From assembly GCA_012269655.1 (NCBI GenBank), contig JAAXJV010000008.1, positions 2,147-19,601 of the forward strand: a DNA stretch of 17,455 nucleotides. The letters run 5' to 3'. The notes under the pieces were generated by a model. That model was not told the origin of the DNA, made no database searches, and saw only the letters and a program-made list of their open reading frames with translations. A program made the position numbers and the translations under genes. This DNA is from Pseudomonadales bacterium (lineage in GTDB: Bacteria; Pseudomonadota; Gammaproteobacteria; Pseudomonadales; Litorivicinaceae). Shown one piece after another: positions 1,729 to 16,738 of the stretch (within the stretch, counting starts at the first letter, position 1; the number at the start of each line of letters is the position of its first letter).

Positions 1729-1751
1729 TGTGTCCAGCAGTGAAGGACACA
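1729..1751 (+). promoter_or_regulatory. Hairpin at the ribosome-binding site of hemC copy 1
   Basis: TGTGTCC (1729-1735) and GGACACA (1745-1751) form a perfect 7-bp inverted repeat with a 9-nt loop, AGCAGTGAA. The right arm contains most of the Shine-Dalgarno GAAGGA (1742-1747) and ends two bases before ATG 1754, so in RNA the stem could hide the ribosome-binding site. The left arm is not included in the 649-bp duplication, so copy 2 has the same ribosome-binding site without this partner. Function is inferred from base pairing only. Confidence 0.4.
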
Positions 1752-3036
1752 CCATGGAATTGATTATTGCCACCCGTGAATCCCCGTTGGCCATGTGGCA
1801 GGCCGAGCACGTTCAAGCCCTATTACAACAAGCGCATTCGGACTTAACGGTCTCGTTACTTCCGATGACCACCGAGGGCGATCAAAAGCTTGAAGGCCCC
1901 CTGTATACGTCAGGCGGAAAGGGTCTGTTTGTTAAAGAGCTCGAAAAAGCCTTATTGGATGGCCGCGCGCATCTGGCGGTGCATTCACTCAAAGACGTGC
2001 CGGTTCATTTCCCCGAGGGCTTGGGTTTGGTCGGCGTGATGGCAGGCGAGGACCCACGGGATGCCTTTGTCAGCAACCAATACGATTCTTTTGAAGCCTT
2101 GCCTGAGGGCGCAGTGGTGGGCAGCGCCAGTTTGCGCCGAGTCAGCCAACTGAAGCATCTGCGGCCGGATCTCGAGTTCAAAGTGTGTCGAGGTAATTTG
2201 CAAACGCGTTTGCGTAAGCTCGATGAAGGGCAGTACGACGCGCTCATTTTGGCGGTCGCGGGTCTGGAGCGCATGGGATTGGCCGAGCGAATCACCCAGC
2301 GTATCAGCATTGAAGATTGCCTGCCGGCGGTGGGTCAGGGCGTATTGGGACTTGAAGCGCGGCTTGACGATCCGGCAACGCTTGAGCAGTGAAGGACACA
2401 CCATGGAATTGATTATTGCCACCCGTGAATCCCCGTTGGCCATGTGGCAGGCCGAGCACGTTCAAGCCCTATTACAACAAGCGCATTCGGACTTAACGGT
2501 CTCGTTACTTCCGATGACCACCGAGGGCGATCAAAAGCTTGAAGGCCCCCTGTATACGTCAGGCGGAAAGGGTCTGTTTGTTAAAGAGCTCGAAAAAGCC
2601 TTATTGGATGGCCGCGCGCATCTGGCGGTGCATTCACTCAAAGACGTGCCGGTTCATTTCCCCGAGGGCTTGGGTTTGGTCGGCGTGATGGCAGGCGAGG
2701 ACCCACGGGATGCCTTTGTCAGCAACCAATACGATTCTTTTGAAGCCTTGCCTGAGGGCGCAGTGGTGGGCAGCGCCAGTTTGCGCCGAGTCAGCCAACT
2801 GAAGCATCTGCGGCCGGATCTCGAGTTCAAAGTGTGTCGAGGTAATTTGCAAACGCGTTTGCGTAAGCTCGATGAAGGGCAGTACGACGCGCTCATTTTG
2901 GCGGTCGCGGGTCTGGAGCGCATGGGATTGGCCGAGCGAATCACCCAGCGTATCAGCATTGAAGATTGCCTGCCGGCGGTGGGTCAGGGCGTATTGGGAC
3001 TTGAAGCGCGGCTTGACGATCCGGCAACGCTTGAGC
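1736..3036 (+). repeat. Perfect 649-bp tandem duplication inside hemC
   Basis: Bases 1736-2387 recur at 2385-3036 (offset 649). I compared the two copies block by block and found no mismatch. The junction reads CTTGAGC|AGTGAAGG: the left part matches the copy-2 sequence ending at 3036 and the right part matches the leader starting at 1736. The two ends share AGC, a 3-bp microhomology, which is why the intervals overlap at 2385-2387. The unit spans the hemC ribosome-binding site and about the first 211 codons. 649 is not a multiple of 3, so the frame is not kept across the junction. No insertion-sequence ends or flanking target repeats are seen. Identity implies a very recent event or an assembly error. 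Confidence 0.95.
1754..2392 (+). pseudogene. hemC: Truncated hemC, duplicated 5' copy
   Basis: This is a 3'-truncated copy of porphobilinogen deaminase, created by the tandem duplication. It starts at ATG 1754 behind GAAGGA, reads identically to the intact gene for 211 codons, adds one Gln and stops at TGA 2390-2392. It keeps the substrate-binding N-terminal region ([14 protein letters not shown], and HSLKDVPV with the catalytic Asp at residue 81, equivalent to E. coli Asp84). It lacks the whole C-terminal domain with the DGGCQVPLAV loop, whose cysteine carries the dipyrromethane cofactor. The break falls close to the domain 2/3 boundary known for this family. It cannot be a working deaminase, though a folded two-domain fragment could in principle be made. 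Its stop codon is part of the Shine-Dalgarno of copy 2 (TGAAGGA), so its translation may feed ribosomes to the intact gene. Confidence 0.9.
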
Positions 3037-3317
3037 GAATTCAAGTCTTGTTAGATGCGACGACAGCGCAGCGCATTGCTGCAGAACGTGGCGTCTCGAC
3101 TCGCCTAGACGGCGGTTGTCAGGTGCCCTTGGCGGTACACGCTCAGCACATCGACGGACAATTGCGGGTCCGGGCTCGGGTGGGCGCAGCCGACGGCAGT
3201 CAGTTAATGGAAGTTGAAACGACCGGCCATCCGGATTCGGCGGCTGACATGGGCATTGCGCTGGCCGAACAGCTTTTGGCCGACGGGGCGGGTGAGCTAC
3301 TCGCCAGCGCGCCTTAG
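2403..3317 (+). CDS. hemC: Porphobilinogen deaminase (hydroxymethylbilane synthase), intact copy
   Basis: Joins four porphobilinogens into hydroxymethylbilane, the third step from 5-aminolevulinate towards heme and sirohaem, in the cytoplasm. It has 304 residues against about 310 for the family. Start ATG 2403 follows GAAGGA. Visible family marks are the N-terminal [10 protein letters not shown], the [14 protein letters not shown] loop, HSLKDVPV with the catalytic Asp81, [10 protein letters not shown] and RGNLQTRL (arginines that bind substrate carboxylates), and DGGCQVPLAV with Cys239 for the dipyrromethane cofactor. It follows the truncated copy by 10 bp and abuts hemD, with TAG at 3315-3317 directly next to ATG at 3318. 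Because of the duplication, its leader is now the 3' end of copy 1, so expression probably depends on readthrough transcription and perhaps translational coupling. Confidence 0.97.
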   Translation: MELIIATRESPLAMWQAEHVQALLQQAHSDLTVSLLPMTTEGDQKLEGPLYTSGGKGLFVKELEKALLDGRAHLAVHSLKDVPVHFPEGLGLVGVMAGEDPRDAFVSNQYDSFEALPEGAVVGSASLRRVSQLKHLRPDLEFKVCRGNLQTRLRKLDEGQYDALILAVAGLERMGLAERITQRISIEDCLPAVGQGVLGLEARLDDPATLERIQVLLDATTAQRIAAERGVSTRLDGGCQVPLAVHAQHIDGQLRVRARVGAADGSQLMEVETTGHPDSAADMGIALAEQLLADGAGELLASAP

Positions 3318-3995
3318 ATGTGGTGGATAGCGCGTCCGCAGCCCGAGGCTGACGCGCTGGTCCAGCGGCTGAATTCCCTGGGCATTCCAGCGAAGGTGAC
3401 ACCGGCGATTCGTATTGAGTCGCTGGAGATCGACCATCGCGTCATTATGGAGCTGGATCAGTTCGACACCTTGATTGTGGTGTCCAAACCCGCGGCCCGG
3501 CGACTCATCGATGAGATCGATCAATACTGGCCTCAATTGCCCTTGGGCATCGATTGCATTGCGGTGGGCCCGGGTACGGCCCAGATTCTTCAAGACTATG
3601 GATTCTCTCCGCGGGTGCCCAAGCAGGCCGACAGTGAAGGCGTATTAGCGCTTGCCCAAAATTCACGGCGAGTTTTGTTGGCCGCCGGAGAGGGCGGGCG
3701 TGAGTTGATTGAACAGGGTCTGGCAAGGGCCGAGCTCACGCGACTTTCCTTGTACCGCCGGGTCAAGGGTCCAGTACCCGCCGAGTCACCGGAGGCCAGA
3801 TCCGTTAATCTATGGGTGACCTCGGCGGAGATTGCCCGGGCCGTGGCCGAATGGCCGCACCCGATTAACGAGGTGTGGGTACCCAGTGCAAGAGTGGCCG
3901 AGGCGGCGCGAGAGGTCGGTCTGCCTGTGACTCAGGTACTGGGCAGTGCCAGTGATGACAGTTTTATCCAAGCGGTTTTGAAGGACAGGGTATGA
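3318..3995 (+). CDS. hemD: Uroporphyrinogen-III synthase
   Basis: Cyclises hydroxymethylbilane with inversion of ring D to give uroporphyrinogen III. It has 225 residues, slightly short for a family usually around 240-270. Sequence in this family is poorly conserved, but the pattern fits: N-terminal WWIARPQPEADALVQRL, DTLIVVSKPAARRLID, the central IAVGPGTAQILQDYGF and VPKQADSEGVLAL, then LLAAGEGGRELIEQGL with LYRRV, as expected for two Rossmann-like lobes. Position directly after hemC, with no spacer, and before hemX supports the call strongly. The start codon touches the hemC stop, and the gene ends in ATGA shared with the hemX start (3992-3995), suggesting coupled translation. Confidence 0.93.
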   Translation: MWWIARPQPEADALVQRLNSLGIPAKVTPAIRIESLEIDHRVIMELDQFDTLIVVSKPAARRLIDEIDQYWPQLPLGIDCIAVGPGTAQILQDYGFSPRVPKQADSEGVLALAQNSRRVLLAAGEGGRELIEQGLARAELTRLSLYRRVKGPVPAESPEARSVNLWVTSAEIARAVAEWPHPINEVWVPSARVAEAAREVGLPVTQVLGSASDDSFIQAVLKDRV

Positions 3996-16273: not shown

Positions 16274-16738
16274 TTAGTCGCTGAGGATGCCGACGTTGCG
16301 TAACGACTCCCAAACGCTATCGGGAATTAAGCTTTTAAATGAGTTTTCTTGCGCGTCTTTGAGTCCCATCGCCTGTAGCTGGCTGTCAGGGACGCCTGCG
16401 TACACGGCGGCTTGCACCAGGCTATCCAGTCGGTCGCCACCGGATTCAACGGTCGCCAATAGACTGGCAATCGCAGGGTTGTCCGCCTGGACCATCAAAG
16501 GTAACCCGTCGCCACCGGCCTGACTCACCAGCGCCACGGCCTGATCAAATATGCTTTGCAGGGCAGGGCTGCTTAAGCGATCCCATTGAACGGATTCAAG
16601 CGTTTCCGCCGTCACTTGTGTTGGAAAGCTGGCCTGGATCTCGGCCCGGATTTCTGGCGTTAATTCCATGGGCGGCAGCAAGAGCTCTTGACTCATCACC
16701 ACGCACGACCAACCCCAAAGTACTAACCACCATTTCAT
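16274..16738 (-). CDS. Unknown exported protein
   Basis: Protein of 154 residues that I do not recognise. It starts MKWWLVLWGWSCVVMSQELL, a likely signal peptide ending near residue 16, and then continues as an acidic, largely helical protein with no cysteine after the signal region and no motif known to me. Segments such as PALQSIFDQAVALVSQ and LDSLVQAAVYAGVPDSQLQAM look like amphipathic helices. It ends 2 bp before azlC, so it is the first gene of the leftward cluster, and it is divergent from a TPR protein that is also exported. No strong Shine-Dalgarno is seen before ATG 16738. It is a real gene judging by the signal peptide, tight spacing and lack of a better frame. Confidence 0.75.
   Translation of the reverse strand: MKWWLVLWGWSCVVMSQELLLPPMELTPEIRAEIQASFPTQVTAETLESVQWDRLSSPALQSIFDQAVALVSQAGGDGLPLMVQADNPAIASLLATVESGGDRLDSLVQAAVYAGVPDSQLQAMGLKDAQENSFKSLIPDSVWESLRNVGILSD

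Follow-up and report, generated by a model that had tools for sequence, protein, structure and literature searches.

Tandem duplications in bacteria form with microhomology at their junctions or with none, and the tandem repeats that result are typically unstable, their loss being thought to be mediated by RecA (accessible portion of PMC11721125). Duplications of this kind are the first step of gene duplication-amplification. According to the accessible portion of PMC11111574, an earlier study found that duplication did not require microhomology, and the authors' own arrays were relatively stable on subculture without selection. The window that we analysed, a 17,455-bp stretch of DNA from a draft genome of the Litorivicinaceae, contains a tandem duplication within hemC that is like the duplications described in these portions in several ways. 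Its copies are exact and lie head to tail, its junction has a short microhomology, a mobile element was not seen and the duplication is absent from relatives. Unlike the duplication-amplifications described there, the hemC case copies only part of one gene, its first two thirds (649 bp, compared to amplified segments of 7-13 kb in PMC11721125) and does not raise gene dosage.

The duplication is defined by the maximal exact self-match of the window, in which two segments are identical at 652/652 positions with an offset of 649 bp (Table 1). A 652-bp exact repeat by chance is excluded, and the duplication is a feature of the deposited sequence. Its edges are sharp, with identity falling to 8/30 bases upstream of the repeat and 1/30 downstream. 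No other direct-repeat family of at least 25 bp was reported in the window (seed 14), and no inverted repeats of at least 25 bp were reported there, thus nothing points to mobile-element ends of such a length. Given that 649 = 3 x 216 + 1, the repeat is out of frame. The sequence-only reading had described a perfect, out-of-frame tandem with a 3-bp AGC microhomology at its junction and an intact second copy, and our analysis bears this description out at each point. The AGC is shared at the breakpoints, yet for the spacing of this repeat and the sequence of the window an overlap of at least 3 bp arises at 9.5% of random breakpoints, so that the overlap by itself lacks significance and microhomology-mediated joining is no more than compatible with the junction.

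Table 1. Coordinates in the window of the features of the hemC duplication.
Feature	Position	Strand	Description	Basis
Leader inverted repeat	1729..1751	+	TGTGTCC / GGACACA, 7 bp with a 9-nt loop, over the copy-1 ribosome-binding site	Sequence, control genes
Repeat copy 1	1736..2387	+	652 bp, from 18 bp 5' of the hemC ATG to codon 211 plus part of codon 212	Exact self-match
Truncated hemC frame	1754..2392	+	212 aa, PF01379 only; ATG at 1754, junction-made TGA at 2390-2392	Pfam
Repeat copy 2	2385..3036	+	652 bp, same sequence as copy 1	Exact self-match
Junction microhomology	2385..2387	+	AGC common to both repeat copies	Self-match
AAGGA motif	2392..2396	+	5' of the copy-2 ATG, one base shared with the copy-1 stop codon	Sequence
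Complete hemC	2403..3317	+	304 aa, PF01379 and PF03900; ATG at 2403, GGCQ cysteine at residue 239	Pfam, alignment
hemD	3318..3995	+	PF02602, next gene of the operon	Pfam

Because the 649-bp period is not divisible by three, the copy-1 frame ends after 212 codons in a stop codon created by the junction. Pfam matches PF01379 at residues 3-209 of this product, covering positions 1-205 of the 207 in the profile, and gives no match to PF03900. A LysR substrate-domain match in copy 1 is weak and under the Pfam cut-off, and we take it to reflect a shared fold. Copy 2 matches both HemC domains and can be aligned to the E. coli hydroxymethylbilane synthase 1ah5 over residues 3-302. The cysteine of its GGCQ motif, which we take to be the attachment point of dipyrromethane, the cofactor bound by Cys242 in E. 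coli, lies beyond the point at which copy 1 ends. Copy 2 thus has the domains and the cofactor cysteine that identify a HemC, whereas copy 1, unlike the E. coli enzyme, lacks PF03900 and the cysteine. Without domain 3 and the cofactor cysteine the copy-1 product is presumably inactive, while copy 2 should make normal HemC. A functional two-domain HemC encoded by copy 1 was considered and rejected as the default for the same missing parts, and it is also disfavoured by the family and order sets described below, where no genome has a matching truncated neighbour. The copy-2 ATG is found 10 bases past the copy-1 stop codon and retains its own ribosome-binding site. The one-base overlap of this stop codon with the AAGGA of copy 2 makes it plausible that translation continues from copy 1 into copy 2.

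Downstream of hemC the genes hemD, hemX and hemY follow and are all intact, and upstream of it a frame at 863-1708 carries a LytTR domain by Pfam. Two related loci have a similar arrangement when compared by eye. In the first (L004, on a contig named 'uncultured Litoricola sp.') HemC is 85% identical and the downstream genes are as in the window. In the second (L005) HemC is 78% identical, argH lies upstream on the opposite strand and hemD lies downstream, matching the window. The contig itself (C271, our locus L003) has 10-N gaps at 331-340 and 2137-2146, upstream of the window, which starts directly after the second of these; by eye this gap breaks an apparent argH. Elsewhere in the window, a 154-aa reading frame at 16274-16738 on the minus strand has no Pfam match at E 0.001.

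The occurrence of the duplication was followed in a family search of 25 genomes, 23 of which gave a hemC match, and in an order search of 194 genomes drawn from a larger group, 190 of which matched. Eight genomes are common to the two sets, leaving 211 distinct genomes, 205 of them with a hemC match. Across this genus, family and order draw the duplication occurs only in the genome of the window, a count in which other drafts could hide duplicates since assemblers can collapse such repeats. The sequence-only reading had expected related strains to lack the extra unit, and it is indeed absent from the congeners G001 and G002, which have one hemC match each, as well as from all other matched genomes. 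Presence in 1/211 genomes is as expected for a young local event. Apart from the genome of the window, the per-genome table holds three genomes with two hemC matches, and none of them has an adjacent duplicate. In G076 hemC fragments lie on two contigs and overlap at residues 62-94, and in G090 and G113 a single hemC gene is read in two neighbouring frames. G090 is a one-contig genome whose hemC is split near residues 215-218 (L246, about 2118-2178; contig 1 near 1849125), between PF01379 and the C-terminal part and beside a run of C; this is probably a sequencing frameshift, and otherwise a split HemC.

A protein search with the 212-aa product compared the best 120 of 7,999 scored candidates. 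The best match (P0001) is a 304-aa HemC that is 98% identical over the query; it represents 51 sequences that were compared through it, so that a truncated form could be inside the cluster. The sole clearly short HemC among the best 120 (P0100, 163 aa, 88% identity over 68% of the query) was rejected as the same truncated copy, as by eye its last residues diverge from the junction and it reads like a frameshift. An exact 26-mer across the junction had no match in viral_contigs, which is a poor place to look for hemC and from which near-genome records may have been excluded. Among the literature matches listed, judged by titles and abstract openings, none describes a tandem duplication of bacterial hemC.

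The leader of hemC deserves separate attention, as the left breakpoint of the repeat is the first loop base of a hairpin in front of copy 1. The arms of this hairpin are 1729-1735 and 1745-1751, and copy 2 is without the left one. The best leader stem is 7 bp in copy 1, 3 bp in copy 2, 7 bp in a shifted register in L004 and 3 bp in L005, and a 7-bp stem is reached in 2/99 control genes. In L004 the ribosome-binding site of hemC sits inside the 7-bp stem (about 195-215), as in the window. Control of hemC through its leader is possible on this pattern. It could be proposed that the duplication was selected, either as copy 2 behind a hairpin-free leader raises HemC translation or as the two-domain protein of copy 1 has a role of its own. 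The scarcity of such stems among the control genes, the position of the breakpoint and the ending of copy 1 near the end of the PF01379 domain would fit such a proposal. However, the predicted openness of the ribosome-binding site is nearly equal in the two copies (0.56 in copy 1 and 0.60 in copy 2, with 0.36 in L004 and 0.58 in L005), the relative L005 has just the short stem, and the folding energy of the copy-1 leader is ordinary (z -1.0). The proposed release of hemC translation from a hairpin is thus unsupported. With the truncated neighbour found in no other genome of our sets and the cofactor cysteine missing from copy 1, we regard selection as very unlikely. The earlier suggestion of selection for altered haem flux finds nothing here that shows it.

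One significant question is how far the assembly itself could have produced the repeat. The genome of the window is a draft of 1,633,323 bases in 310 contigs, with a completeness of 78.09 and a contamination of 3.75. We fetched 101/310 contigs, including that of the window, of which 87 were readable (542,977 bases). Within these there are 22 internal gaps, of which 7 are runs of 10 N and 15 are runs of 100 N, and in 8/15 of the latter the 55-base sequences flanking the gap are exactly identical (in L120, L145, L189, L195, L207, L211, L212 and L245). At seven of these eight sites the gap is spanned by a continuing frame of 248-501 aa; at the remaining one, in L120, the longest frame is 133 aa and the site may be intergenic. 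By default, metaSPAdes raises k to 55, and where a cycle stays unresolved it writes 100 N and repeats the k-mer. The shared 55-mers indicate a de Bruijn graph of k=55 in which loops stayed unresolved, and the eight gaps are probable examples of such loops. If the graph was of this kind, an exact repeat of 652 bp was too long to be read through; reads would have covered the junction alone, and the copy number of two would be an estimate by the assembler. It is thus probable that the hemC repeat was not read through by the assembly. In contrast to the eight gaps, a loop at hemC, if there was one, has been written as two copies and not closed with N.

The same contigs contain a second tandem. In L132, on contig C87 of the same genome (G000), 243 bp at 1238-1480 are repeated at 1480-1722 with a period of 242, a 1-bp overlap and one mismatch (T/A at 1251). 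The unit extends from the end of an upstream frame into the start of a 284-aa gene (PF03446, PF09130), and the second copy of this gene is left whole. Using a test for tandems of at least 80 bp with at most 3% mismatch and an offset of at most 5 kb, we found these 2 in the 542,977 bases of the window's genome, compared to 0 in 239,890 bases (31 readable contigs of G001 and G002) and 0 in 1,010,999 bases (loci L004-L105). These are imperfect controls: the loci L004-L105 all lie around hemC, at least two of them duplicate genomes already in the set, and several were built with other assemblers. The sole control repeat that the test found is a dispersed one of 270 bp, in L065. The excess of 2 against 0, which corresponds to about 0.09 by our own arithmetic, is suggestive only, and the hemC case had prompted the search.

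Taken together, the second tandem and the eight loop-like gaps, found within the third of the contigs that we fetched, suggest that they share a technical origin. A chimeric junction, formed by template switching in PCR or amplification, could have made a loop in the k=55 graph that was then walked twice, in which case the bacterium would have one hemC. The repeated 55-base flanks, above all where a long coding frame continues across them, the near-exact tandem in L132 against none in the controls, and the absence of the duplication from congeners would all agree with this. Against it, a graph loop still requires reads that hold the junction, and the excess of tandems is not significant. We consider a chimeric junction that the assembler turned into two copies to be nearly as likely as a real duplication, and somewhat short of an even chance. 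The sequence-only reading had already named an assembly artefact as the main alternative, and the fragmentary draft, the k=55-like gaps and the second tandem mean that more weight is due to it. A free 649-bp circle beside a single chromosomal hemC, with its junction merged into the contig, would be expected to give the same junction in a short-read graph and is compatible with the sequence. Positive evidence for it is none, and we hold it to be the least probable of the explanations. There is also a small chance, slightly above that given to selection, that the hemC repeat, the L132 tandem and all eight of the 55-mer gaps reflect real DNA, and that the natural population of this marine lineage abounds in short tandem duplications of about 0.2-0.7 kb, which segregate in ordinary genes.

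The explanation that we give about an even chance is that part of hemC was duplicated in tandem at short homology, and that the duplication is neutral and carried by some or all cells of one marine Litorivicinus/Litoricola-like lineage. Replication slippage or other illegitimate joining at the 3-bp microhomology would have duplicated the 649-bp unit, which would carry the ribosome-binding site, codons 1-211 and part of codon 212. Copy 1 would then be left as a dead frame truncated at its 3' end, while copy 2 would give normal HemC from its own ribosome-binding site. The exact repeat with its sharp edges and 3-bp overlap argues for a real duplication, as do the intact copy 2, hemD, hemX and hemY and the gene order that agrees by eye with L004 and L005. 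The 310-contig draft, the k=55 signature, the second tandem, the eight loop-like gaps and the odds of such an overlap at random breakpoints argue against it. For such a duplication we infer that cells carry the junction in their DNA and express copy 2, and that the variant is unstable and, as copy 2 is whole, neutral.

The 652/652 identity bounds the divergence of the copies only below about 0.46% at 95%, and copies could also stay identical through gene conversion, so that identity alone does not mean that the event is very recent, as had been claimed. Instability is likewise an expectation only, since the accessible portions of PMC11721125 and PMC11111574 differ on how stable such arrays are. 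The earlier proposal that the tandem may expand or collapse within the population goes beyond what was found here, as nothing shows either.

There is no sign that the duplication of hemC has given rise to a new function, and it looks like an ordinary and probably short-lived duplication, or else an artefact of assembly. Since copy 2 is intact, haem synthesis is predicted to be normal, and the duplication has little significance alone. It does give reason for caution, as even a perfect tandem duplication can be artefactual when the draft genome is fragmentary. Should the graph loops prove real, the extent of short tandem duplication in populations that are uncultured could be measured from them. 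If all the loops and tandems are real, they would represent standing variation in short duplications in an uncultured bacterium, seen as loops in a metagenome assembly graph.
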